Of a stretch of DNA of 64,000 bases, positions 16,430-38,075 are shown one piece after another. The stretch is taken from assembly GCA_028284445.1 (NCBI GenBank), contig JANQRS010000011.1, positions 378,321 to 442,320 on the forward strand, read 5' to 3'. A program made the translations under genes and the position numbers. The DNA comes from Calditrichia bacterium. Lineage in GTDB: Bacteria > Calditrichota > Calditrichia > RBG-13-44-9 > J075. The notes under the pieces are model-generated. The model saw only the letters and a program-made list of their open reading frames with translations, was not told where the DNA came from and ran no database searches. Numbering within the stretch: position 1 is the stretch's first letter; each line of letters starts with the position of its first letter.

Positions 16430-19219
16430 CTAGTTATCGTACACATCGAAATATTCGAGGGCGTTTCCATGCTCGTGGATTGGCTGCGCTTCGTTGTTGT
16501 CATGCGGATGATTCTGGCGATATTCGCGAGCAATTGCCTTGGCGTTTTCATCTTCCTTGTATCGGCGATAACGCAATTCATGTGCTTTGGATTTTTCCTT
16601 ATTGCCGGCTGCGCGGTAGCAGAGACTAAGATTGTAATGTGCCATCAGGTCTTCTGAGTCAATGCGGAGCGCGGCTTCGAACAAGGGGATCGCCTCGGCC
16701 GGGCGCGAGTCCAGGTAGTAAATGCGACCCATTTGATTGAGCACCACGCGGTCCTTGGGATATAAAGAACGCACTTTCTCCAAATCGTTGAGCGCTGACG
16801 GATAATCGGCACGCGCTTTGTGCAACAGGCCACGGAAAAAATAGATTTTGTGAAAATCAGGATCGACATCTGACGCTTCTTTCAGAACCAACTCTGCATT
16901 TCCCAAGTCTCCGCTGCGAAGGTAGACACGGGCGAGATTGATCCATCCATCTGTGTAGGTCGGCTCTATTTCACTGACTTTGCGAAATGCCCGTTCCGCC
17001 CCGAGCAAATCACCTTGCTGAAGCAGGCCAATACCATAATCATTCCAGCGCTCGCGCAAATTGCCGGATGGCTCAGAAGATGACCGCTCGTTATCGGCAA
17101 GTTCCAGCAGCAGCGTATCGCTGGCCATCATGACGATCGGAATGTCGGGGACGGCCTTCATTCTTCCCGAGACGGTTTGCAAGTCGCCGGTAAATTGCCA
17201 ATCGCCATCATCGTAATCAGGAGAAAGAGCAAATTGCTGGTCAGGAACGCGCTCTCCGCGATAAGCCCACTGATTATGCCACCAGATGAATTTGCGATAG
17301 TTAACCTTGGCGATAAATCGCACAGGCCCGACAACATCAGCAGGAACATTCAAGCGATAATGCGCGACGTCAGCGGACCCCGGACCAATCAAATTCACAT
17401 ATAGGACCGATCGCGTGGCCCAGGCGTTACGCTTATTGATAGGATTACCGTTCGCGTCCAGCATCAGATTTCTGTAGAAATGCGCACCGGGATCTACCGC
17501 ACCGCGCCGGTCATTAGCGACAGATCCACTGTGAAAGATCGGCTTACCATTCGCATCGATGGCCTGAACCTCTAGCCAGGCCTCCTGCGCATCTATCGTT
17601 CCGGAGGGAAAGAAGTGACCAATGCCTCGCGTTCTTACCACGACGTCAAGGCGCACGGAACTGCCTCCTTCGAGAACAGCCATGCCATCGTCAAGCGGCG
17701 CAATGATTTCGCTGGCTACACCGCCAGCTTGTCCACCCACCTGGAAACCCGCTTCTTCACCAACTGCAAACGATGTGGCCAGATTTGCGCCCGGTTCAGC
17801 GGCACCACGGGCGGTATTTCCGGTATCAATACTTTTTGCCGCCTCCACCTTGTTGATGGCAAATATATCAACACTTAGCTGATTTCGCTGCAAGAACAAG
17901 GCCGTCAAATCGTTTTGCAGCGTGTCATGATTGGCCGTCGCCAGGGCAGTGTTCGCTGCCAGGAAACGGTGATTGGGAATTGTGCCGCCATCATTACCGG
18001 GATCATCCGATGGCGTACGGGGCATATGGCAATCTGCACAATCCTGTGGCGCAGGCGGGTAGTAAAATGACCGCGCACCCATTCCGGACACGCCGCTGGC
18101 CTGCCAGTTGTCGTAGGTATTAAACCCACGCACCCAACGATAATTATTTACCTCTTTATCGAGGTGCACCTTGTGACAAGAGCTGCAAAATTCTGCAGTT
18201 TGACGAGTATGAAAGGGCTTTATGAATGTATTCCGATGCGGCTCGGGGTCAATCCTTAAAATGAAGTCATGGACAGCCTGTACGATCTTGTTGTTGCTGG
18301 CCAACAACTCATGCAAAGCGGGGTATTCAACGACATAGCCGCCGTTACCCATAGTATTCTGAACGTCAACAATGCTGTGACAGGCCACACAGCCGATCCC
18401 GGCATGCGCTTCTTCCTTGTCGAGGAAATCCTCAACTTTCTGCTCCATTTGTCCGCTGAACAACAGCGCCGGATCATGACAACCGCTGCACCATTTTGGT
18501 GATACTTCGCCAACAACTTCCTGCATGTATTCGATAGACTTTCGATACCACTGATTATTAAATGAGGAAAAGTGATGAGCAGAAGACTCCCATTGCTCAT
18601 AGGCATCGACATGGCATCCGGATCGGGCACAAGATTTCGAATCGGTAAAATAATCAGCACGGATCAGCTTGCCGTCAGCTGTTGCAGAGGCACTGGGAAA
18701 GAAAGGCCCCTCAGCACCGCCCTGGACTTCACCGGTTAATGTCTCCGGCGGGAGTAGGGGATTGGTGATTTCAAATTGTGCCTCATAGCCATGATAGTGA
18801 AGGCCGGAAACCACGGCAGTCAGGAAAAATGCAGTCACAACGAGCGCCTTTTGCCAACGGCCTATCGCTTCGTTGCGGAACAAGCGGTAGAGCACCCACG
18901 CAACGAGAACAAATCCGAGCAGGATATGCCCGTAGAGAATGCCTCGTGTTGCATTAATATTACCGAAAGCAACAATCGCTACACCTGACATGCCCGTCAG
19001 CCAGGCCATCACTGCCGGAAGCCTCGTATCCGAGGTTTGCGACAAACCCTTCACCCAGCGCAAAACTATCCAACCCCCTGCGGCGCCCAGAAACAGATGA
19101 AGCAACACATTGGCCACATAAAAGAAAGTCGCGCTGCCGTAGCCCAGCAAATAAATGCTATTCAGCCCCAGAAGCGTTATGATTATGAGCAAGGATTTAT
19201 CAGTGTTAAATATTCGCAT
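16430..19219 (-). CDS. Membrane five-haem cytochrome c fused to TPRs (929 aa)
   Basis: Five hydrophobic segments at about 10-27, 33-55, 68-85, 93-112 and 124-140 are followed by a periplasmic multihaem region. Haem motifs are CARSGCH (197-203, the unusual C-x4-CH spacing), CSGCH (244-248), CVACH (277-281), CSSCH (345-349) and CADCH (394-398). Spacing and extra histidines such as HRF near residue 417 resemble the cytochrome c554/c' family. A beta-rich middle (about 510-690) and C-terminal TPRs (about 725-900, e.g. AERAFRKVSEIEPTYTDGW) follow. It probably moves electrons from membrane quinol to a periplasmic acceptor, with TPRs docking a partner. There is no clear ribosome-binding site at the ATG, and it is divergent from the aldo/keto reductase. 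Confidence 0.85.
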   Translation of the reverse strand: MRIFNTDKSLLIIITLLGLNSIYLLGYGSATFFYVANVLLHLFLGAAGGWIVLRWVKGLSQTSDTRLPAVMAWLTGMSGVAIVAFGNINATRGILYGHILLGFVLVAWVLYRLFRNEAIGRWQKALVVTAFFLTAVVSGLHYHGYEAQFEITNPLLPPETLTGEVQGGAEGPFFPSASATADGKLIRADYFTDSKSCARSGCHVDAYEQWESSAHHFSSFNNQWYRKSIEYMQEVVGEVSPKWCSGCHDPALLFSGQMEQKVEDFLDKEEAHAGIGCVACHSIVDVQNTMGNGGYVVEYPALHELLASNNKIVQAVHDFILRIDPEPHRNTFIKPFHTRQTAEFCSSCHKVHLDKEVNNYRWVRGFNTYDNWQASGVSGMGARSFYYPPAPQDCADCHMPRTPSDDPGNDGGTIPNHRFLAANTALATANHDTLQNDLTALFLQRNQLSVDIFAINKVEAAKSIDTGNTARGAAEPGANLATSFAVGEEAGFQVGGQAGGVASEIIAPLDDGMAVLEGGSSVRLDVVVRTRGIGHFFPSGTIDAQEAWLEVQAIDANGKPIFHSGSVANDRRGAVDPGAHFYRNLMLDANGNPINKRNAWATRSVLYVNLIGPGSADVAHYRLNVPADVVGPVRFIAKVNYRKFIWWHNQWAYRGERVPDQQFALSPDYDDGDWQFTGDLQTVSGRMKAVPDIPIVMMASDTLLLELADNERSSSEPSGNLRERWNDYGIGLLQQGDLLGAERAFRKVSEIEPTYTDGWINLARVYLRSGDLGNAELVLKEASDVDPDFHKIYFFRGLLHKARADYPSALNDLEKVRSLYPKDRVVLNQMGRIYYLDSRPAEAIPLFEAALRIDSEDLMAHYNLSLCYRAAGNKEKSKAHELRYRRYKEDENAKAIAREYRQNHPHDNNEAQPIHEHGNALEYFDVYDN

Positions 19220-26243: not shown

Positions 26244-26280
26244 CCAGCTTCCAAATGGGGGAATACAGGAGATGACAGTG

Positions 26281-28602
26281 ATGCCTCGTATAATCAACGT
26301 TCTCTTAGTAACCAGCCTGATCTTGATTCCAGCCTTGATCTTGACCAGTTGCAGTAGCGAATCTGGACCTCGCCAGAAGCAGATACCCGATATTGTCGAC
26401 TTCAACTTCCACATAAAACCGATTCTGTCCGACCGTTGCTTCACTTGTCATGGACCGGACGCCAACACCCGCGAGGCCGGCCTGCGCCTGGATACAGAAG
26501 ACGGCGCATTTGCAGCCCTGGGCGAGGACAAAGACCACCACGCAATCGTTCCCGGGATTCCTGATTCGAGCACGATTCTTGACCGTCTGACAACAGACAA
26601 TCCGGATGAAATCATGCCGCCGCCGGCATCCAACCTGACGGTTACCGAATACGAAGTCGCTTTGATTCGCCGCTGGATTGAGCAGGGTGCTCAATGGAAG
26701 AAGCACTGGGCTTTTACCAAGCCGGAACGGCCGGAAGTCCCCGCGATCAACAATCCGGATTGGGCAAACAACCCAATCGACAACTTCGTTGCCAGACGTC
26801 TCCAACAAGAGAGCCTGCAACCATCACCTGAAGCCAGCCCGGAGGTACTGCTCAGGCGAGCCAAATTCGACATTACCGGTTTACCACCCACTATTGAAGA
26901 ATTAGATGCTTTTCTGAATGATGAATCGCCGGACGCTTATGAGAAGGCGCTTGACCGCTTTTTTGCGTCGCCTGACTACGGTGAAAATATGGCCATCGAC
27001 TGGCTGGACGCCTCGCGCTATGCTGACAGTCACGGCTACCAGGATGATCTGGAACGCACTATGTGGCCCTGGCGGGATTGGGTGATTAAGGCCTTTAATG
27101 AAAACATGCCCTATGATAAATTCGTCAAGTGGCAATTAGCAGGGGACCTTTTACCAGAGCCGAGCATGGAGCAACTGCTGGCAACCGGCTTTAATCGCAA
27201 CCACAAGATCACCCAGGAAGGCGGTGTGATCGACGAAGAATATCGAGTTGAATATGTTGCGGATCGAACCCATACAACCGGTACCATTTTTCTTGGCCTT
27301 ACGATGGAGTGCGCCCGTTGCCACGACCACAAATACGATCCGCTGACCCAGAAAGACTACTTTGAGATGTTTGCCTTCTTCAATAACGTGCCGGAGCAAG
27401 GCGTTATTCCCTACGGTGATGAGTCAAAAGCCCCGAAACCCAAGATCAAGATGTCTGTTGACGATGCTAGTCGAATGCTGCCGTTCATAACAGAGCTGAA
27501 AGATCTGGATTCGCTTGAATTCATGATCATGGAAGATATGAAAGAAGGGCGACAGGCATATATCCTCGGCCGGGGACAGTATGACAATCATCAGGACTCA
27601 GTAAGCGCCGGTACGCCGTCATTCTTACCAGGAATGACAGACAACCTGCCGCGCAACCGTCTTGGATTTGCCGAGTGGCTGATTAGTCCGGAAAATCCAC
27701 TCACCGCAAGGGTTGCAGTTAACCGCATCTGGCAATCGCTGTTTGGCACCGGCATCGTAAGTACGCCTGATGATTTTGGCAACCAAGGCGCTTTGCCCAC
27801 TCATCCCGAATTACTCGATTGGCTGGCAGTTGAATTCCGGGAATCTGGTTGGAACGTCCAGGGAATGCAAAAGTTGATCATGATGTCCGCGGTTTACCGA
27901 CAGAAATCCGTGGCCAGCGAAGAACATCTTGAACGCGACCCTGAGAACCAATTATTGGCACGCGGACCGCGTTACCGGCTTCCGGCAGAGCTAATCCGCG
28001 ACAATGCTCTGGCCGTCAGTGGTTTGCTCGTCAAAAAACTCGGTGGACCAAGCGTCAAACCATATCAACCGGAAGGGCTTTGGGCAGAAACGACTTCCTT
28101 GCAAGGTTTGCGGCGTTATGTAATTGACAGTGGCGACAAACTGTATCGTAAGAGCCTTTATACTTTCTGGAAGCGCACGCTCCCGCCGCCAGCTATGATG
28201 ACTTTTGACGCTGCTGCTCGAGATCTATGTTCTGTCAAACGTCAAAAGACCAGTACACCGCTCCAGGCTCTTGTTCTTTTAAACGATCCTCAAATCATCG
28301 AGGCATCCCGGGTTTTTGCAGAAAAGCTGCTAAAGAATGAGGCCTTGGAGGATACCGACAAATTGAAACATGCATTTCGCAAGATCACATCGAGATTGCC
28401 CGATGAACAAGAAACTCAATTGTTGCATCAAATTCTTGCAGACAACATAGAGAAATTTTCCGGGGCTGAAGAAGATACAAAGGCATTCCTGGCCGTAGGA
28501 GAAGCAACATACGATGAGGATCAGGATTTGCCGAAGCTGGCTGCGCTTACAGTTGCCGTCAGCGCCATATTCAATACGTATGAAGCCGTCATGAAAAGTT
28601 AA
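26281..28602 (+). CDS. PSCyt1-PSCyt2-PSD1 lipoprotein (DUF1549/DUF1553)
   Basis: 773 residues from ATG 26281, which has AGGAG nine bases upstream (the ATG at 26272 directly abuts that site). The lipobox ALILTSC anchors it outside the inner membrane. Domains in order are PSCyt1 cytochrome-like with haem motif CFTCH (residues 53-57; DVNFHIKPILSDRC-like opening, MPPP near 117), PSCyt2/DUF1549 (about 150-360, LLRRAKFDITGLPPT, DWLDASRYADSHGYQ, CARCHDHKYDP) and PSD1/DUF1553 (about 465-740, NRLGFAEWLISPENPLTARV, VNRIWQSLFGTG). The second C-x-x-CH at CARCH is also a possible haem site. The family is abundant in Planctomycetes, nearly always beside DUF1501 genes as here; no reaction has been firmly assigned. 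First gene of a six-gene unit. Confidence 0.93.
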   Translation: MPRIINVLLVTSLILIPALILTSCSSESGPRQKQIPDIVDFNFHIKPILSDRCFTCHGPDANTREAGLRLDTEDGAFAALGEDKDHHAIVPGIPDSSTILDRLTTDNPDEIMPPPASNLTVTEYEVALIRRWIEQGAQWKKHWAFTKPERPEVPAINNPDWANNPIDNFVARRLQQESLQPSPEASPEVLLRRAKFDITGLPPTIEELDAFLNDESPDAYEKALDRFFASPDYGENMAIDWLDASRYADSHGYQDDLERTMWPWRDWVIKAFNENMPYDKFVKWQLAGDLLPEPSMEQLLATGFNRNHKITQEGGVIDEEYRVEYVADRTHTTGTIFLGLTMECARCHDHKYDPLTQKDYFEMFAFFNNVPEQGVIPYGDESKAPKPKIKMSVDDASRMLPFITELKDLDSLEFMIMEDMKEGRQAYILGRGQYDNHQDSVSAGTPSFLPGMTDNLPRNRLGFAEWLISPENPLTARVAVNRIWQSLFGTGIVSTPDDFGNQGALPTHPELLDWLAVEFRESGWNVQGMQKLIMMSAVYRQKSVASEEHLERDPENQLLARGPRYRLPAELIRDNALAVSGLLVKKLGGPSVKPYQPEGLWAETTSLQGLRRYVIDSGDKLYRKSLYTFWKRTLPPPAMMTFDAAARDLCSVKRQKTSTPLQALVLLNDPQIIEASRVFAEKLLKNEALEDTDKLKHAFRKITSRLPDEQETQLLHQILADNIEKFSGAEEDTKAFLAVGEATYDEDQDLPKLAALTVAVSAIFNTYEAVMKS

Positions 28603-28663: not shown

Positions 28664-30142
28664 ATGGAAAAAGAATTGCTGGAATTTAATTGCAGTTTGA
28701 ATCGTCGCAACTTCCTCTCAAAGATGAGTGTTGGGATCGGTAGTGTTGCATTGGCATCATTACTGAACCCGAAAATGCTACTCGGCAATGAGAAAGAAGC
28801 GGATGCTACCAGCGGTGTGACCGGCATACTTGACTCCCCGCATTTTGCCCCTAAAGCCAAACGAGTGATATACCTTTTTCAAAGTGGTGGGCCATCGCAT
28901 CTGGATCTCTTCGATTACAAACCCTTATTACGCGAACGGAATGGCGAAGAATTACCGGACTCAGTCCGCAATGGTCAGCGGCTCACGGGGATGACAAGCG
29001 GCCAGGACAGCTTTCCGCTCGCCGGATCCCAGTTTGACTTTCAGCAGCATGGCAAAAGCGGCATGTGGATCAGTGACTTGCTGCCATATACCGCCAAAAT
29101 TGCCGATGAACTGTGCGTTATCCGTTCGATGTATACAGAGGCAATCAATCATGATCCGGCCATCACCTTTTTTCAGACCGGTTCCCAGCAAGCAGGTCGT
29201 CCAAGTATCGGTTCCTGGCTTAGCTACGGCCTGGGCAGTATGAATGAAAATCTGCCAGGCTTCTGCGTTTTACTTTCCAGAGGCACCGGAAGACCCGATG
29301 CGGCGCAGCCTCTCTATTCTCGTCTCTGGGGTAATGGTTTCTTGCATTCATTGCATCAAGGCGTGCAGTTCCGCAGCGGGAAAGATCCGGTTCTCTACCT
29401 CAAGAATCCGCCTGGCGTCAGCCGCACTGATCGGCGACAAATGCTGAATTCCCTGACGCGGCTCAACGAAATCTCACATCAGAAATTTGGAGACCCGGAA
29501 ATTGTCTCACGCATTGCTCAATATGAAATGGCCTATCGCATGCAAACATCCGTTCCGGAGACCATGGACCTTAGCAGCGAACCGGAAAGTATATTTCGTA
29601 TGTATGGACCGGACTCTCTGATTCCGGGAACCTTTGCTGCAAACTGCTTGCTGGCACGCAGACTTGTTGAACGCGACGTTCGTTTTGTGCAGCTTTATCA
29701 TATGGGCTGGGATCAACATGAGAACTTGCCCACACAAATTGCCGGACAGGTCCGGGACGTCGATCAGGCATCTGCTGCATTGGTTCTGGATCTCAAACAG
29801 CGCGGTCTGCTTGAAGATACGCTGGTCATCTGGGGCGGCGAATTCGGCCGCACGAATTATTCCCAGGGCAGATTAACCAAGACAAATTATGGGCGTGATC
29901 ACCACCCACGCTGTTTTTCAATCTGGATGGCCGGAGGCGGTGTAAAAGCTGGATACACTTATGGCCGGACGGACGAGTTCGGATACAATATTGCTGAGAA
30001 CCCGGTACATGTGCACGACTTCCAGGCAACCTTGCTTCACCTGCTCGGCCTCGATCATGAGAAACTGATTTTCAAACACCAGGGAAGGCGTTTCCGGCTT
30101 ACAGATGTGCATGGACATGTCGTAAAAGATATTCTGGCGTAA
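28664..30142 (+). CDS. DUF1501 protein, copy 1 (Tat-exported)
   Basis: 492 residues. The N-terminus carries a twin-arginine motif NRRNFLSKM followed by a hydrophobic stretch, so it is exported folded by Tat. The body matches DUF1501, a sulfatase/alkaline-phosphatase-like fold: [60 protein letters not shown] and [21 protein letters not shown]. The His/Asp/Glu-rich segments look like metal ligands. Catalytic activity is not established for the family. It is 61 bases after the PSD1 gene and about 93% identical at protein level to the copy at 30261 (34 differences counted by eye). Confidence 0.93.
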
Positions 30143-30165
30143 GAGATAAGAAAAAGAGAGTCAGA

Positions 30166-30246
30166 TACAATTGCCATCGTTTTGAACCGGACTATCATTG
30201 GGGCAAACTGGATCTGGCGACAACCCGAGTTGTCATAAACGATTAA
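30166..30246 (+). pseudogene. Fossil fragment of a propeller (NHL-type) gene
   Basis: About 26 codons in one frame, ending at TAA 30244-30246, encode [22 protein letters not shown]. This aligns without gaps with YNTHQYELDYHWGRLDPAMTPV of the propeller gene at 31740 (about residues 39-60). There is no start codon or ribosome-binding site, and the rest of the gene is missing. It lies exactly where a propeller gene would be if the duplicated unit had been DUF1501 plus propeller. Confidence 0.85.
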
Positions 30247-30260
30247 ATCGGAGAACCGTG

Positions 30261-31736
30261 ATGGAAAAAGAATTGCTGGAATTCAATTGCAGTCTGAATC
30301 GCCGTCATTTTCTGTCAAAAATGAGCGTCGGTATTGGCAGCCTTGCCCTGGCATCACTGCTCAATCCCAAGTCGCTACTTGGCAAAGAGAAAGAATCAAA
30401 TGTCGCCAGCGGCATAACCGGCATTCTTGACTCCCCGCATTTTGCACCCAAGGCAAAGCGGGTGATTTACCTTTTTCAAAGCGGCGGACCATCGCATTTA
30501 GAGCTCTTCGACTACAAACCCTTGTTACGCGAACGGAATGGCGAAGAATTGCCGGATTCAGTTCGTAACGGCCAGCGCCTTACAGGTATGACCAGCGGGC
30601 AGGACAGCTTCCCATTGGCGGGATCACAATACGACTTCCAACAGCACGGCAAAAGCGGAATGTGGATCAGCGAACTCCTGCCGTATACAGCAAAGATCGC
30701 AGATGAGCTCTGCGTCATTCGTTCGATGTATACCGAGGCAATTAATCACGACCCGGCAATAACCTTCTTTCAGACCGGCTCGCAGCAGCCGGGCCGTCCG
30801 AGTATTGGCTCCTGGCTCAGCTATGGATTGGGAAGCATGAATGAAAACTTGCCGGGCTTCTGTGTGCTCCTTTCGCGCGGCACCGGACGCCCACAAGGTC
30901 AGCCATTGTATTCGCGGCTTTGGGGTAACGGCTTCCTGCATTCTCTTCATCAAGGCGTGCAGTTTCGTAGCGGCAAGGATCCGGTTCTCTATCTGAAGAA
31001 TCCACCCGGAGTTAGTCGCACCGACCGCCGGCAAATGCTGAATTCCCTGACACAGCTCAACGAAATCTCACATCAGAAATTTGGAGACCCGGAAATCGTC
31101 TCTCGTATTGCACAGTATGAGATGGCTTATCGCATGCAAACCTCGGTTCCGGAAACAATGGACCTTAGCAGCGAACCGGAGAGTGTATTTCGCATGTATG
31201 GACCGGACTCTGTTGTTCCGGGAACCTTTGCTGCAAATTGCCTGCTGGCGAGGCGGCTTATTGAACGCGACGTACGCTTCATTCAACTTTATCATATGGG
31301 CTGGGATCAACACGAAAGCCTACCCAGCCAGATTGCCGGTCAGGCGCGCGATGTTGATCAAGCATCTGCAGCCTTGGTTCTTGACCTAAAGCAGCGTGGC
31401 TTGCTGGACGATACTCTCGTCATCTGGGGTGGTGAATTTGGACGAACCAATTACTCGCAAGGCAAACTGACTAAAACCAACTATGGGCGGGATCATCATC
31501 CACGCTGCTTCTCTATCTGGATGGCCGGCGGCGGCGTCAAAGCCGGCTTCACCTATGGGAAAACCGACGAGTTTGGTTATAATATTGTAGAGAACCCGGT
31601 TCATGTGCACGATTTCCATGCAACCTTGCTGCACCTGCTCGGCATCGACCACGAAAAACTGGTTTTCAAACACCAGGGACGGCGCTTCCGCCTAACAGAC
31701 GTACATGGGCATATCGTAAAAGATATCCTGGCATAA
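30261..31736 (+). CDS. DUF1501 protein, copy 2 (Tat-exported)
   Basis: 491 residues starting at ATG 30261, with GGAG eight bases upstream; the preceding open frame overlaps the fossil fragment and is not used. The same family features as copy 1 are intact: Tat motif [46 protein letters not shown] and the GRDHHPRC metal-site-like region. Differences from copy 1 are mostly conservative; the loop RPDAAQPLY is shortened to RPQGQPLY. Most codons differ synonymously, so the duplication is not recent and both copies have stayed under purifying selection. Three bases separate it from the propeller gene. Confidence 0.93.
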
Positions 31737-31739
31737 CGC

Positions 31740-32786
31740 ATGAAAAGACGAGAGTTTATCAAAAAGACAGCAACCGCATCTGCGGCTGCGGCATTTGCGC
31801 CGGCATTGCTTGGCTGCAGCAAAGCTGTTGCAGCACCGAAAGGCATTACGCTTGGCTACAACACTCATCAATATGAGCTGGACTATCACTGGGGCCGCCT
31901 CGATCCGGCAATGACCCCCGTGAATGACTGTCACGAGATGGTCCAGGATGCGCGCAAACGCATCGTTCTCTTGACCAATGAGACCAAGAACAATGTCATC
32001 ATCTACGATAAATCCGGAAAGTATCTCGAATCCTGGGGCAGCGAATACCCTGGGGCCCATGGCCTGACCCTCTGGAATGAAGGTGGTAAGGACGTGCTTT
32101 TTATCTGCGACTACGAGCGGCACGAAGTCATTAAGACGACGATTGACGGCCGAGTCCTGATGACACTTCCTTATCCGGCGGACAGTGGCAAATATAAGGA
32201 AGCAGGACAATACAAGCCGACAGAATCCGCTATTGCGCCAAACGGTGATATTTATGTGGTCGACGGATATGGTGAGCAATACGTGATGCGCTACAACCAC
32301 AAGGGTGAATTGTTGCAAGTTTTTGGCGGAAGGGGAGAGGACGACCATCTTTTCTTCAATGCCCACGGCATTTGCATTGACAACCGCGACGCGAACAACC
32401 CAATTGTTCTGGTAACCGCGCGACAGAAGAACCAATTCAAGCGCTTCACCCTGGATGGCGAATACCTATCGACGATCGAAGTTCCAGGCGCTTTTGTTTG
32501 TCGCCCGGTCATTCACGGGGATCATATTTACGCGGCAGTCTTGATGAGTCAAGCTGCAAGCGGGTCAAAATCCGGCTTCGTGGTTATCCTCAATGGAGAG
32601 AATAAAGTTGTATCGACGTTGGGAGGCAGCCTCCCCGAATATGTCGACGGCAAACTGAAGCCATTGCACCAAACTGTTCGTGTTTTCCAGCATCCGCATG
32701 ATGTTCTCGTAGACAACGATGAGAATGTATATGTTGCCCAATGGAATTCCGGCAAAATCTACCCGATAAAATTGAACAGAGTATAA
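31740..32786 (+). CDS. Tat-exported six-bladed beta-propeller (NHL-like) lipoprotein
   Basis: 348 residues. It begins MKRREFIKKTATASAAAAF and reaches LLGCS near residue 28, so it combines a Tat signal with a lipobox. The mature part contains NHL-type repeats: GDIYVVDGYGEQYVMRYNHKGELLQVFG, IVLVTARQKNQFKRFTLDGEYL, and DVLVDNDENVYVAQWNSGKIY at the end. Relatives include 6-bladed propellers that bind ligands or act as lyases and lactonases; no catalytic assignment can be made here. Starts three bases after DUF1501 copy 2, and its TAA overlaps the ATG of the next gene (TAATG), indicating coupling in both directions. Confidence 0.88.
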   Translation: MKRREFIKKTATASAAAAFAPALLGCSKAVAAPKGITLGYNTHQYELDYHWGRLDPAMTPVNDCHEMVQDARKRIVLLTNETKNNVIIYDKSGKYLESWGSEYPGAHGLTLWNEGGKDVLFICDYERHEVIKTTIDGRVLMTLPYPADSGKYKEAGQYKPTESAIAPNGDIYVVDGYGEQYVMRYNHKGELLQVFGGRGEDDHLFFNAHGICIDNRDANNPIVLVTARQKNQFKRFTLDGEYLSTIEVPGAFVCRPVIHGDHIYAAVLMSQAASGSKSGFVVILNGENKVVSTLGGSLPEYVDGKLKPLHQTVRVFQHPHDVLVDNDENVYVAQWNSGKIYPIKLNRV

Positions 32787-33517
32787 TGCAGGAAAAATTC
32801 CAGGTCTCCAATCCTCTTGTGCAAACTCCGGGGCAAGTATTCGAGAAAGAAACCAGCGTTTCTCTCGAGCTTGGCCTGCCGGGCGTAGCATTTTACTACA
32901 CGCTTGATGGCTCGACCCCGGATGAATCCTCAGCGCGCTATACAGCACCCATTACGATACAGGAAACCTGCACGCTGAAGGCGCTTGCAGTGGCCAATGG
33001 CTGGCTACCAAGCGATGTGGAGGTTCGAGACTTCGTAAAAGCAAAATATCGGGCAGTAGACGTCAAGCTTGAAACGCCAATAGATGAGCGATATCCCGGC
33101 CAGGGCGCCAAGAGCCTGATCGACAGGGCATCAAATAGCACCAATTTCCACTCCGGTCATTGGCTCGGCTTCGAAGCAACCGATCTGACAGCCATTGTCG
33201 ACCTCGGCAGCGAAGTGGAGATCAAACATATTATCGTCAGCTGCCTGAGCGCAACCGGCGCCTGGATCTTTAGACCGGGTCAGATTTCTGCAGAGATTTC
33301 CAGCGACGGCAGCAACTTTGGAGTTGCCGGCGAAATCAAGTTGCCTGCACAAACAGAGGCAGATCCAACCAAGATCGAATTTCCACGCCTGGACATCGCG
33401 ACAACCATTGGGCGCTACGTAAAAGTTACCGTACATAATATTGATGTGGTGCCGGATTGGCATCACGGCGCCGGCGGAAAAAGCTGGCTTTTTGTAGACG
33501 AAATACTTGTGTCCTAG
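32786..33517 (+). CDS. Chitobiase-C-like + F5/8 (discoidin)-like protein without a signal peptide
   Basis: 243 residues from ATG 32786, which overlaps the stop of the propeller gene. Residues about 15-85 look like the chitobiase/hexosaminidase C-terminal or Fn3-associated domain (AFYYTLDGSTPDESSARYTAPI). Residues about 100-243 look like an F5/8-type C (discoidin) carbohydrate-binding domain (SLIDRASNSTNFHSGHWLGFE, IVSCLSATGAWIFRP, HHGAGGKSWLFVDEILVS). Such domains normally work outside the cell, yet there is no signal sequence. The same two domains form the C-terminus of the next protein, and the discoidin module ends the GH20 enzyme. It may leave the cell bound to the Tat-exported propeller protein, or be a cytosolic sugar sensor; both are speculative. 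Confidence 0.85.
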   Translation: MQEKFQVSNPLVQTPGQVFEKETSVSLELGLPGVAFYYTLDGSTPDESSARYTAPITIQETCTLKALAVANGWLPSDVEVRDFVKAKYRAVDVKLETPIDERYPGQGAKSLIDRASNSTNFHSGHWLGFEATDLTAIVDLGSEVEIKHIIVSCLSATGAWIFRPGQISAEISSDGSNFGVAGEIKLPAQTEADPTKIEFPRLDIATTIGRYVKVTVHNIDVVPDWHHGAGGKSWLFVDEILVS

Positions 33518-33545
33518 ATTTCACCGTATCTAATCGAGGCATTCC

Positions 33546-35660
33546 ATGATCAATGAACTGATCGCCTTTTTTGGCAGATTTCATCCCCTGGTTCTCCATC
33601 TCCCCATCGGCTTTATTGTCGCTGCCGCGCTTCTCCAGTTTTTCTCCACGCGAAAAGACATGGCGGTATACCGTTTGGCTGCCAATTTTGTTCTGAGTAT
33701 AGGGGCTTTGACAGCAGTCGTATCTGCAGTCTTCGGCTACTTTTTATCTTTGGAAAGCGGCTACACAGAGGATGCCATTTTCTGGCACCGCTTCTGGGGC
33801 ATAGGGCTGGCGCTGCTCACCACAATACTTGCCTGGACCAACCAGAAATCTACGGACGTCACTGAAGGCACCATCACAAAGTTCAACACCTGGCTTTGGG
33901 TTGGCACCCTGGTTTTTCTAACAATAGCCGGGCATACCGGCGGCACTATTACTCACGGTGAAACCTATTTGACCGAAAATCTCCCGACGCCGGTCAAGCA
34001 GCTGTTTGGCCTCGAGGATGAAGCTGAACTTTTGGCCTTCAACGATGTCGACATTGATTCAATCCCTGTCTACAATCACCTTATACAACCGGTAATCAAA
34101 AATCGCTGCATTTCCTGCCATAATCCCTCCAAACGTAAAGGCGAGCTATTGCTCAATTCGCCGGACGGCATCAATGCCGGTGGCGAAAATGGATCTGTCA
34201 TTACTGCCGGCAATGCATCGCGCAGCAGCTTTCATGGCCGCCTCATTTTACCAATGGATAATAAAAAGCATATGCCGCCCAAAGGCAAGCGCCAGCTAAC
34301 CACGGAAGACATCGAACTGATTGCATGGTGGATCAACGAAGGCGCTTCATACACGGCAAAAGCCGGTGATTTGAACATGCCGGAGAATATCCGCGCCATT
34401 CTGACCGAGCGAACAGCGCCAAAGAACCCGCTGCTTGCCATGGAGATTGATGAAGCAGACGCGGACGACATTGCGGATGCAAAATCTGCCGGGATTCCGG
34501 TTTATCGCGTGGCGGAGGACATTCCGTTTCTACAAGCAAATCTCAGCGGCAAAAAGAACATCAGCACGGAATTACTGGCGTACCTGGAGCCGCTCTCCGA
34601 GCAACTTGTGGAACTTAACCTCGGCCGCACCGATGTCACAGATGAGGGCATTGCCGTTGTCAGCAACTTACCGCATCTGCAGAGGCTCTACCTGAATAAC
34701 ACCGCTATCACCAATCGTGGCGCACAACACCTGGCGGATCTGAAATACTTGACTTATTTGAATATGTACGATACACAAATCAATGATTCCGCTATGATCA
34801 ATCTGGCTGACCTCGAATATCTGGAAGACGTCTACCTCTGGCAAACCGGCGTTACCGAGGCTGGTTTTGCCATGCTCGGCGAACAAATCGAGGATACAGC
34901 AGCAGTCCTGGGTCTGCCACTTGCCGAGCTATTCGGCACAACCAAGCTCAAGCCGCCGTTGGTCACCTATGACAACAAATTGTTTAAAGATAGCGCAACG
35001 GTGACCTTCGAGTCTAATCTTCATGATGCCAACATCTATTACACGACCGACAGCACCGACCCGACGCCCGAATCGAAGCGCTACGATGGCCCATTTTCAA
35101 TTAAGAACACCGGAGAAGTTCGCGCAATTGCAGAAAAGGCAGATTGGGAAACCAGCGACGTTGCCATCGTCGAATTTGTGAAGATTGGCTATGTCGTGAA
35201 AGACATCAAACTTGCCAGTAATGCCAGCAGTCGTTATGCCGGCAAGGGACCGAGAACCCTGATTGATCAGGAAAAAGGTGATATTCAGTTCGCCAGCGAA
35301 TATTGGCTGGGCTACGAGCAGAAAAACCTGACTGCCACGCTTGATATTGGCGAGACGACAAATTTGTCAACCGTTACGGTGAGTTGTCTTGAGAATATTG
35401 GCTCCTGGATCTTTTATCCGCAGCGACTGGATGTATGGACTTCACTTGATGGGGTCAATTTTCAAAAGGCATCGACGCGGCGGTATCCAGCTCCCGAAAC
35501 CGACAGACCGGCATCTCTCAAGTATTTCATCCTTGATTTCGAGGAAAGGCAAGCTCGCTATGTCAAGGTCAAGGTCACCAACATTGGCAGTCCTCCTGAT
35601 TGGCACCAGGGCGCCGGCGGAAAGGCCTGGGTATTTGTCGATGAAATCCTCCTCGATTAA
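33546..35660 (+). CDS. Membrane cytochrome-LRR-chitobiase-C-discoidin fusion (704 aa)
   Basis: The N-terminus holds four transmembrane segments (about 12-30, 42-62, 80-97, 113-131) with FHPLVLHLPIGF, a DUF2231-like membrane domain whose histidines could hold haem b. A PSCyt1-like cytochrome domain follows, with haem motif CISCH (188-192), MPPKGKRQL and an IELIAWWINEGA helix. Leucine-rich repeats (about 355-460: LVELNLGRTDVTDEGIA, HLQRLYLNNTAITNRGA), a chitobiase-C/Fn3-associated domain (about 475-540, IYYTTDSTDPTPESKRYDGPF) and a discoidin-like domain (about 550-704, ending WHQGAGGKAWVFVDEILLD) follow. It looks like an electron-carrying membrane base with an external glycan-binding arm. Last gene of the operon. 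Confidence 0.88.
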   Translation: MINELIAFFGRFHPLVLHLPIGFIVAAALLQFFSTRKDMAVYRLAANFVLSIGALTAVVSAVFGYFLSLESGYTEDAIFWHRFWGIGLALLTTILAWTNQKSTDVTEGTITKFNTWLWVGTLVFLTIAGHTGGTITHGETYLTENLPTPVKQLFGLEDEAELLAFNDVDIDSIPVYNHLIQPVIKNRCISCHNPSKRKGELLLNSPDGINAGGENGSVITAGNASRSSFHGRLILPMDNKKHMPPKGKRQLTTEDIELIAWWINEGASYTAKAGDLNMPENIRAILTERTAPKNPLLAMEIDEADADDIADAKSAGIPVYRVAEDIPFLQANLSGKKNISTELLAYLEPLSEQLVELNLGRTDVTDEGIAVVSNLPHLQRLYLNNTAITNRGAQHLADLKYLTYLNMYDTQINDSAMINLADLEYLEDVYLWQTGVTEAGFAMLGEQIEDTAAVLGLPLAELFGTTKLKPPLVTYDNKLFKDSATVTFESNLHDANIYYTTDSTDPTPESKRYDGPFSIKNTGEVRAIAEKADWETSDVAIVEFVKIGYVVKDIKLASNASSRYAGKGPRTLIDQEKGDIQFASEYWLGYEQKNLTATLDIGETTNLSTVTVSCLENIGSWIFYPQRLDVWTSLDGVNFQKASTRRYPAPETDRPASLKYFILDFEERQARYVKVKVTNIGSPPDWHQGAGGKAWVFVDEILLD

Positions 35661-35684
35661 TACTTCACTTCTGATACTGCACCT

Positions 35685-35707
35685 CGTTCGCGGCAGAACC
35701 GCGAACG
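35685..35707. other. Perfect hairpin after the PSD1 operon
   Basis: CGTTCGCGG / CCGCGAACG, a 9-bp stem with a 5-base loop, 25 bases after the operon's last stop. No T tract follows. It may end or stabilise the transcript, or act as an operator for the GH20 gene downstream. Confidence 0.55.
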
Positions 35708-35768
35708 ATTGCATAAACCGCCTCAGAAACATTTCCTCTGCACAAATTCCCCACGAGTGCAGTTGCCC

Positions 35769-35797
35769 TTGACTATAACCACGCCTTTTCATAACCT
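35769..35797 (+). promoter_or_regulatory. Candidate promoter of the GH20-GH109 unit (shared motif)
   Basis: TTGACT, 17 bases, TAACCT, then two bases and ATTAG. Exactly the same arrangement occurs at 40800-40835 upstream of the symporter. Distance to the GH20 start is about 140 bases. Confidence 0.5.
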
Positions 35798-35939
35798 CTA
35801 TTAGTTTGTATTCAGCGAAAACATTCTCGCCTAGCGAAATTCGCGAAGTCCGGAGCTTATCTCATCAGATTCCCGGTCTCTGAATTTCGATACTAATTGA
35901 CCTGCTGGTAACATTCCGAAATATGATATGAGGAATTCC

Positions 35940-38075
35940 ATGCAATTTTATCTTCGATTGATACTCATCTGGTGCATGATGATGGCAACAAGCAATATTC
36001 AAGCAGACACATCCATTCCGGCAATTATTCCTCAACCGCAGAAAATGAAATTGGGGAGCGGTAATTTTAGCCTGACCGCGTCAACCCGGCTCATCGTGGC
36101 CGAAAAGTCAGAACTTACAGAAACCGCATCCTATCTTGCCAAGCGGGTTTTTCGAGCCAGCGGCTTTGACCTGCTCGCCGATAAACCTTCTGATGCGAAA
36201 GGTGGTATCATTCGCCTGAGCATCGATTCCAGAATAAAAGGAGAAGAAGCTTACACGCTCAGCGTCACAGCCGAGAAAGTGGACATCCGCGCAGCTACCT
36301 CCGCTGGCATTTTCTACGGCATTCAAAGCCTTCTTCAGTTGATGCCGCCGAAGATTTTTGGCAACAGTGCCCGACAGGATATCTTGTGGAATATTCCTTT
36401 CGTCGACATCAGCGACGCACCTCGATTCGGATATCGCGGAATGCATCTGGATGTTGGCAGACATTTTTTCCCGGTCGAAAACATCAAGTCCTATATCGAC
36501 TACCTGGCATTGCATAAAATGAATCGTTTTCACTGGCACCTCACAGAAGATCAGGGCTGGCGAATCGAAATCATGAAGTATCCGAAATTGGCCGAAGTCT
36601 CTGCCTGGCGCAAAGAAACTTTAATCGGCCACGCCGGACGCGCCAAAGCCAGTTTCAAATTCGACGGCAAGCGCTACGGTGGCTATTATACACAAGATGA
36701 GGTCCGTGAGGTTGTCGCCTACGCCGCCGAGCGCCATATCACTATTATTCCCGAAATTGAGCTCCCGGGGCATTCGCTTGCGGCGCTTGCAGCATATCCG
36801 GAGCTGGCCTGCACCGAAGGACCGTTCGAAGTTGGCACCTATTGGGGCGTATTCAAGGACGTATACTGCCCAAATGAAGCAACCTTCACTTTTTTGCAGG
36901 ACGTGTTAAGCGAAGTGATGGCGCTGTTTCCGTCAAAATACATTCATATAGGTGGCGATGAATGCCCGAAGGACCGCTGGAAAGAATCCCAGTTTTGTCA
37001 AGAGCTGATCAAAAGAGAGGGCCTCAAAGATGAGCACGAACTGCAAAGCTGGTTTGTCCGTCGAATCGAAAAATTTCTAAACAAAAACGGCCGCAAATTA
37101 ATTGGTTGGGATGAAATTACCGAAGGCGGACTTAGTCCGACGGCAACCGTGATGTTCTGGCGCGGGCACATGACCGATCTGCCGCTTTCCGTTGCCGAAG
37201 GCGGCAACAATCTTATTATGACCCCGACTTCGCATTGTTATTTCGACTACTATCAATCCAAAAGAGATAGCGAACCGCTGGCCATCGGCGGTTATTTGCC
37301 GGCAAAAAAAGTATACGAGTTCGAGCCAATACCCACCGACTTCCCACAGGAGTTAATTCCGCAGATCTCCGGTCTGCAGGGGAATGTCTGGACAGAATAC
37401 ATTCCAACATGGAAGCATCTGCAATACATGGTCTTTCCGAGGCTCTGCGCAATGGCCGAGGTCGGCTGGTCAGCAAAAGATGCACGCGACTGGTCAGACT
37501 TCAGCAGCCGGATGAATGTGCATTTTCAAAGACTGGATCTCCTGGGCATCAATTATGCAAGGCATATGTTGACGGCAGAGGATGATATCATTCGGGTTGA
37601 GCATATTGCCAAGGGCGCCGGCATCTCGGTTACGCCATCACCCACCGCGAAGTACGGCAGCGACGTGAATGCACTGGTTGACGGCATCCAGGGAAGTGCC
37701 GGGTTCCTCGACGAGACCTGGCGTGGCTTTGAAGGCTTTGACTTTAGCGCCCGGATTGACCTTGGCAGTCAACGAGAAATCAAAGAGCTTTCTGCGGGCT
37801 TTTTATCCGACCACGGCTCCTGGATATTTCTCCCAACAGACGTTCGTTTCTCCGTTTCAACCGACGGTAAACGATTTTCAGATGTAGGCAGTTCAAGCTA
37901 CAATGTTATGCCGGATACAGACAGTCGCGCACGGCGCGAGTATCGCGTTAGCCTGGAACCAACCACAGCCCGTTACATCCACCTGGATATCAAAACCCTG
38001 CAAACGTGCCCGGAATGGCATAGCGGAGCCGGCGGGAAGGCCTGGGTATTCATCGATGAGATCACGGTAAAATAG
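35940..38075 (+). CDS. GH20 beta-N-acetylhexosaminidase with discoidin-like C-terminus
   Basis: 711 residues from ATG 35940, preceded by GAGGA; an ATG at 35928 lies upstream of that site. A Sec signal peptide ends SNIQA. The N-terminal GH20b domain (about 25-150) precedes the catalytic barrel (about 155-520), with RGMHLDVGRHFFPVENIKSY, FHWHLTEDQGWRIEI and the catalytic pair D340-E341 in HIGGDECPKDRW. A C-terminal discoidin-like domain (about 570-711) ends WHSGAGGKAWVFIDEITVK. It removes terminal beta-GlcNAc or GalNAc by substrate-assisted catalysis in the periplasm or outside. It is followed 16 bases later by a GH109-like gene. Confidence 0.95.
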   Translation: MQFYLRLILIWCMMMATSNIQADTSIPAIIPQPQKMKLGSGNFSLTASTRLIVAEKSELTETASYLAKRVFRASGFDLLADKPSDAKGGIIRLSIDSRIKGEEAYTLSVTAEKVDIRAATSAGIFYGIQSLLQLMPPKIFGNSARQDILWNIPFVDISDAPRFGYRGMHLDVGRHFFPVENIKSYIDYLALHKMNRFHWHLTEDQGWRIEIMKYPKLAEVSAWRKETLIGHAGRAKASFKFDGKRYGGYYTQDEVREVVAYAAERHITIIPEIELPGHSLAALAAYPELACTEGPFEVGTYWGVFKDVYCPNEATFTFLQDVLSEVMALFPSKYIHIGGDECPKDRWKESQFCQELIKREGLKDEHELQSWFVRRIEKFLNKNGRKLIGWDEITEGGLSPTATVMFWRGHMTDLPLSVAEGGNNLIMTPTSHCYFDYYQSKRDSEPLAIGGYLPAKKVYEFEPIPTDFPQELIPQISGLQGNVWTEYIPTWKHLQYMVFPRLCAMAEVGWSAKDARDWSDFSSRMNVHFQRLDLLGINYARHMLTAEDDIIRVEHIAKGAGISVTPSPTAKYGSDVNALVDGIQGSAGFLDETWRGFEGFDFSARIDLGSQREIKELSAGFLSDHGSWIFLPTDVRFSVSTDGKRFSDVGSSSYNVMPDTDSRARREYRVSLEPTTARYIHLDIKTLQTCPEWHSGAGGKAWVFIDEITVK

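Follow-up and report, generated by a model that had tools for sequence, protein, structure and literature searches.

A conserved cytochrome operon of Calditrichota and Bacteroidota bears the C-terminal module of glycan-degrading enzymes

Introduction

Planctomycetes, Verrucomicrobia and marine Bacteroidota encode many proteins with PSD1, DUF1501 and PSCyt domains, to which the papers that we found assign no function. The closest described systems are the PSCyt/PSD clusters of He et al. (2017), in which genes for PSCyt1, PSCyt2 and PSD1 proteins adjoin those of unknown families and lie near sulfatases or glycoside hydrolases (GHs); some of the proteins include LamG, CBM6 or F5_F8_type_C domains (PMC5615132). 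A role in carbohydrate metabolism has been suggested for the planctomycete-specific cytochrome clusters (PMC5615132). Here, we analyze a 64,000-nucleotide stretch (the window) of an 8.19-Mb Calditrichia assembly, in which a 243-residue protein (SMALL), a 704-residue cytochrome fusion (CYT) and a GH20 beta-N-acetylhexosaminidase are encoded side by side. PSCyt/PSD proteins with domains of the carbohydrate-binding type were already known from those clusters; however, they were described in Verrucomicrobia, whereas the arrangement reported here is PSD1-DUF1501-propeller-SMALL-CYT and occurs in Calditrichota and Bacteroidota. The less ordinary point is that a conserved cytochrome operon, a variant of the PSCyt gene clusters, bears the tail of glycan-degrading enzymes.

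The same tail is known from BT0459, a GH20 beta-hexosaminidase of Bacteroides thetaiotaomicron (structure 6q63) described as active on antennary N-acetylglucosamine (GlcNAc) of complex N-glycans (PMC10154615). BT0459 is the nearest solved relative of the window GH20 (E 1.5e-184) and ends in a CHB_HEX_C_1 domain followed by a discoidin domain. There, this cassette sits on an enzyme, whereas here it is found on a membrane cytochrome and on the free-standing SMALL; moreover, the window GH20 lacks CHB_HEX_C_1, and the GAGGKAW loop corresponds to GGKSYPGF in BT0459. A further parallel is provided by the DUF1501-DUF1800-chitin synthase operons, in which a DUF1501 protein with a twin-arginine translocation (TAT) signal is encoded together with an enzyme for a GlcNAc polymer, although the description of these operons mentions no PSD1, cytochrome or discoidin protein (PMC5122149). 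A cytochrome partner that ends in the tail of a solved hexosaminidase provides a concrete, testable lead on PSD1, DUF1501 and PSCyt proteins, in hosts that include Arenibacter and Saprospiraceae.

Results

SMALL, CYT and GH20 end in a homologous discoidin module

A sequence-only reading of the window had proposed that the three proteins end in the same type of domain, and pairwise BLASTP bore this out. SMALL and CYT matched across both domains of the cassette (E 2e-63), SMALL and GH20 at E 9e-32, and CYT and GH20 at E 1e-29, with identities between the discoidin parts of 42, 32 and 29%, respectively; the homology of the modules far exceeds chance. The shared part is an F5/8-type, carbohydrate-binding module family 32 (CBM32)-like discoidin domain of about 158 residues. 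The closing motifs quoted in that reading are present as WHHGAGGKSWLFVDEI in SMALL, WHQGAGGKAWVFVDEI in CYT and WHSGAGGKAWVFIDEI in GH20, and so is the core that it named, as GAWIF in SMALL and GSWIF in the other two. It had also placed a chitobiase-C-like domain in front of two of the modules, and Pfam detected CHB_HEX_C_1 (PF13290) in SMALL and CYT and none in GH20 (Table 1). The Pfam family F5_F8_type_C (PF00754) scored over its cut-off in CYT and GH20 and slightly under it in SMALL (26.0 versus 28.2 bits).

The AlphaFold2 model of SMALL (mean predicted local distance difference test score, 97) shows an eight-stranded beta-sandwich like that of solved CBM32s. A Foldseek search with this model returned 6q63 as the best match, followed by the GH29 8ayr of Akkermansia muciniphila and then by CBM32s with solved sugar complexes. 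In the case of BT0459, the CHB_HEX_C_1-discoidin tandem matches the C-terminus across both domains with E 1e-56. The Akkermansia protein, from a sialidase/fucosidase study, has by fold a similar C-terminal tandem of CHB_HEX-like and F5/8 domains but is more distant, and sequence comparison finds only its CHB_HEX part. The CBM32s, namely the galactose-binding module of a sialidase (2bzd), that of a Clostridium perfringens GH84 (2v5d) and a pneumococcal fucose-binding module (2j1r), share the discoidin fold (Foldseek E 6e-7 to 2e-5); however, their sequence identity is low (11 to 16%), and a conserved tryptophan/histidine loop is the signature of the window subfamily itself.

The idea that the sharing is peculiar to this locus largely gave way, as unrelated proteins commonly bear the module, both within this genome and across many others. 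A profile built from the three window modules detected eight copies in the genome, and the five outside the locus belong to a GH92-type enzyme, a sulfatase, two GH20s and one further protein. Among genome contigs, we confirmed 488 candidates and kept the best 80 of these 488; they had been chosen by the closing motif, and the proportions of their hosts are those of the sample rather than natural frequencies. The hosts comprise sulfatases, GH20, GH92 (a label that comes from sequence recognition rather than a profile scan), GH29, DUF2231 cytochromes, SASA esterases, GH116, GH31, a BNR protein and others. In this motif-seeded sample, CHB_HEX_C_1 directly precedes the discoidin domain in 21/23 GH20, 20/20 GH92, 14/17 GH29 and 12/12 CYT proteins, and in only 1/24 sulfatases. 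Thus, the module is a widespread C-terminal cassette of secreted glycan-degrading enzymes, usually CHB_HEX_C_1 plus discoidin, found mainly in Bacteroidota and not special to this locus. Elsewhere, one 28-kb region (G005:C19:222384-250496) holds five module genes, encoding a SMALL, a CYT, a GH20, a GH92-type enzyme and one other protein.

Very different host enzymes and the low identity between hosts (29 to 42%) would fit a module that serves secreted enzymes in general as a structural cap or linker, spread by domain shuffling and devoid of a binding role. In the loop ahead of the last strand, however, the tryptophan and the histidine are near-invariant (46 to 48 of 49 CYT modules), as expected for a binding face, and CYT, which is not a hydrolase, retains the module. 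We therefore consider a mere cap quite unlikely.

SMALL and CYT belong to a conserved cytochrome operon

We collected 109 CYT genes from module-related loci and wider Bacteroidota samples, 49 of them with the module. A PSD1 gene with DUF1501 lies upstream of CYT in 45/49 module-bearing loci; a propeller gene is present in 26 and SMALL in 17 of the 49, and no locus has SMALL without the propeller. The order PSD1-DUF1501-(propeller)-(SMALL)-CYT recurs in L040 (Calditrichia), L050, L055, L067, L070 and Arenibacter loci, while within Calditrichota the operon occurs in just 2/40 genomes. In the window, the genes of the operon are spaced by -1 to 115 bp. As in the PSCyt/PSD clusters, the PSCyt2-PSD1 gene adjoins a gene of an unknown family, with DUF1501 placed between PSD1 and CYT. 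Thus, SMALL and CYT belong to a conserved five-gene cytochrome operon, and the function of such proteins is not described in the papers that we found: our literature search turned up no account of this operon type, and searches on DUF1501 with DUF1549/1553 and on DUF2231 yielded no functional paper.

CYT combines a DUF2231 domain, a PSCyt1 (PF07635) cytochrome domain, leucine-rich repeats and the cassette. The CxxCH motif and the distal methionine of PSCyt1 are invariant in 109/109 CYT proteins, and the presence of haem c is well supported by these predicted ligands. DUF2231 is predicted to form a four-helix bundle. Its histidines 13, 18 and 81 never vary, and His130 and His137 occur in 107/109 and 106/109 proteins, respectively; judging from these residues, the domain might, at a guess, bind haem b or a quinone. 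Haem c is attached in the periplasm, so the leucine-rich repeats and the module of CYT should face that compartment as well. The module would then meet only glycans that reach the periplasm or already reside there, and He et al. (2017) took a similar view of PSCyt proteins (PMC5615132). The PSD1 protein of the window has two CxxCH motifs (residues 56 and 347) and no inserted binding domain.

The start codon of SMALL overlaps the stop codon of the propeller gene (TAATG). All 15 Bacteroidota copies of SMALL have a signal-like hydrophobic N-terminal segment, often with a lipobox, which suggests that the protein is normally exported. The propeller protein itself starts with MKRREFIKK, of the twin-arginine type, and has a lipobox-like LLGC, although its match to the TAT signal is weak. 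Fusion of SMALL to the propeller by frameshifting was rejected: the -1 frame is open, but the Bacteroidota copies have a signal peptide of their own, and no clear slippery site was seen. In two loci (L055 5474-7414 and L070 5475-7415), the place of SMALL is held by a 647-residue protein with an N-terminal BNR (sialidase-like) domain fused to CHB_HEX-discoidin.

GH20 is a separate unit with a module of different ancestry

The gap between CYT and GH20 measures 267 bp and contains a perfect 10-bp hairpin. A GH109-like gene lies 16 bp downstream of GH20, with ROK and SSS genes next in line. GH20 has the catalytic D-E pair motif (HxGGDE) as HIGGDE at residue ~340. It starts a second unit, apart from the operon, and its membership of the operon was rejected: the gap separates the two, and elsewhere GH20 rarely adjoins the operon.

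In a tree of 59 modules, those of the operon (CYT, SMALL and the BNR fusion) fall on one side of a branch with support 92/91, while the window GH20 module pairs with that of a DUF2961 protein of Splendidivirga, a member of another phylum (99/97). Forcing the three window modules into one clade costs 44 log-likelihood units and is marginally rejected (approximately unbiased test, p-AU 0.047), whereas the test does not reject a topology that unites the GH20 module with those of the operon (p-AU 0.11). Together, the tree and the topology tests indicate an old origin of the sharing within the trio, in which GH20 is no closer to SMALL and CYT than many other proteins are. The adjacency of the three copies and their common closing motif would fit a recent local duplication, in which the GH20 tail was copied onto its two neighbors. 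That is very improbable, as the operon modules cluster across phyla and apart from the window GH20 module, whose partner in the tree belongs to another enzyme. In addition, the topology that unites the three is marginally rejected, Bacteroidota have the operon with both modules and no GH20 beside it, and CHB_HEX_C_1 is found in SMALL and CYT but not in GH20. The sequence-only reading had inferred from the shared modules that all three proteins target the same glycan or dock to the same surface partner. The sharing itself is confirmed, but a common target is only partly supported; against it speak the commonness of the module, the separate GH20 unit and the grouping of the GH20 module with modules of enzymes.

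Module-less operons carry an insertion in PSD1

Operons with a module-less CYT encode a longer PSD1 protein: 42/45 of them have an insertion between its PSCyt2 and PSD1 domains, as compared to 0/45 of the module-bearing operons. Loci fetched after the pattern had been noticed gave 27/29 and 0/19, respectively. The insertions (L189-L208 and L263-L322) span 82 to 334 residues and were Laminin_G_3, CBM_6 or unassigned in those scanned, a set that leaves out the class with only ~82 to 84 extra residues. This complementary pattern supports, without proving, the idea that the operon set requires a binding domain in one place or another. Trees of the CYT core and of PSD1 minus the insert each require just two changes. 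This points to one or two events that produced two ancient operon forms, and it rules out a recurrent exchange of binding domains between CYT and PSD1. An exceptional operon (L204 3023-5496) encodes a 780-residue PSD1 protein free of the insertion and a 478-residue module-less CYT, followed at 29 bp by a gene for an ApbE flavin transferase.

The operon lies in a glycan-active neighborhood

The operon is often followed directly, on the same strand, by glycan-active genes, which encode GH18, GH78, GH29, GH3, GH31, sulfatase, SIS_2 or NagB-PIG-L proteins; GH18 occurs at L040, L067 and L288, NagB-PIG-L at L170 and L171, and SIS_2 with GH20 nearby. In the second Calditrichota genome with the operon, a module-bearing GH20 lies 9 kb downstream of CYT, and two more module proteins are encoded within 26 kb. 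The recurrent placement beside glycan enzymes, GH18 and GH20 among them, and the arrangement in the second Calditrichota genome partly favor a common glycan. The window itself holds GHL10, GH2, GH20, GH109-like and GH38 genes together with sugar transporters, and the combination of GH2, GH20 and GH38 would suit galactose-GlcNAc-mannose chains such as N-glycans.

A neighborhood specific to GlcNAc (11/45 versus 2/47 loci, a post hoc comparison) was not sustained: in a fresh set of about 34 loci, taken with 1.5-kb flanks, all that reappeared were four SIS_2 genes, accompanied by GH3, GH31 and GH29. Because of these fresh loci and of the neighbors of the module-less operons (see below), we keep only the broader description of a glycan-active neighborhood.

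A putative glycan-tethered redox complex in the periplasm

Our favored reading, to which we assign a probability of about 0.55, is that PSD1, CYT and the cassettes form a periplasmic, glycan-tethered redox complex that works beside exo-glycosidases, with GH20 as a separate player. DUF2231 would anchor CYT in the membrane, with its haem c and cassette in the periplasm, and SMALL would provide a second, detached copy of the cassette. The cassettes would keep a periplasmic oligosaccharide or glycoconjugate close to PSD1 and CYT, the two haem proteins, which would perform a redox step on it; the electrons would exit via haem c and the membrane domain. The module of GH20 would tether that enzyme to its own substrate, in a pathway that is perhaps shared by proximity. 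More specifically, and only as a tentative proposal, the operon could be a glycan-oxidizing machine of the periplasm in which CYT docks through the tail of an exo-glycosidase and electrons from sugar pass to the respiratory chain, the sister form having its LamG or CBM6 domain in PSD1.

Several points weigh against the redox complex. Module-less operons too adjoin glycan-active genes (sulfatases, GH95, GH2, GH28 and GH29), and the complementary placement of binding domains in CYT or PSD1 amounts to about two evolutionary changes. DUF2231 had no Foldseek match at E <= 0.001, with CcmABCD (8ce1, chain C) at E 0.74. Both Calditrichota copies of SMALL, in the window (region 32741-33517) and at L040 8656-9471, lack a signal peptide, which could possibly be explained by co-export with the TAT-type propeller protein. 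In the literature that we searched, neither binding nor enzyme assays are reported for PSCyt, PSD1, DUF1501 or the module subfamily. Last, He et al. (2017) class F5_F8_type_C on PSCyt proteins as a protein-protein interaction domain and not as a CBM (PMC5615132).

This classification favors an alternative in which SMALL, CYT and possibly GH20 have a single docking partner at the surface in common, and the modules assemble a complex and bind no sugar; SMALL, which is almost pure cassette and always encoded beside the propeller, would fit such a role. However, dozens of enzymes that are unrelated and for the most part glycan-active end in this cassette, with no such partner apparent in those organisms, and the sister operon type has LamG and CBM6, which are classic carbohydrate-binding folds. 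Docking to a protein is thus rather unlikely.

Organization of the locus

Table 1. Positions of the genes, domains and repeat discussed here, numbered from the first nucleotide of the window
Feature	Position	Strand	Evidence or remark
PSD1 protein (PSCyt1 + PSCyt2/DUF1549 + PSD1/DUF1553), operon gene 1	26272..28602	+	Pfam E 7e-103, 7e-89, 1e-17
DUF1501 protein, copy a	28664..30142	+	Pfam E 2e-159
DUF1501 protein, copy b, tandem duplicate of copy a	30258..31736	+	Pfam E 1e-161
NHL/6-bladed beta-propeller protein	31740..32786	+	Pfam NHL, DUF5128
SMALL, 243 residues, CHB_HEX_C_1 + discoidin	32786..33517	+	Pfam
SMALL, CHB_HEX_C_1 domain	32831..33019	+	Pfam E 4e-17
SMALL, discoidin module (F5/8 type C, CBM32-like)	33041..33514	+	Closing motif 33458-33505
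CYT, 704 residues, DUF2231 + PSCyt1 haem c + leucine-rich repeats + CHB_HEX_C_1 + discoidin	33546..35660	+	Pfam
CYT, predicted DUF2231 four-helix membrane domain, conserved His13, 18, 81, 130, 137	33579..33950	+	
CYT, PSCyt1 cytochrome c domain, C188xxCH192 + Met243	34107..34286	+	
CYT, CHB_HEX_C_1 domain	34983..35162	+	Pfam E 7e-14
CYT, discoidin module	35178..35657	+	Closing motif 35601-35648
10-bp perfect inverted repeat in the CYT-GH20 gap	35684..35708	no strand	Possible end of first unit
GH20 beta-N-acetylhexosaminidase, 715 residues, GH20b + catalytic + C-terminal discoidin, no CHB_HEX_C_1	35928..38075	+	Pfam E 1e-118
GH20, discoidin module	37581..38072	+	Closing motif 38016-38063

The two DUF1501 copies (28664-31736) share 93% protein and 81% DNA identity, while the operons of the relatives inspected have a single copy. 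The operon and GH20 lie within a large glycan locus (20467-54709) that comprises GHL10, GH2, AraC, the PSD1 operon, GH20, GH109-like, ROK, SSS, sugar ABC transporter and GH38 genes. Upstream of this locus, on the minus strand (16430-19219), a 929-residue multihaem protein resembling cytochrome c554 and carrying TPR repeats is encoded.

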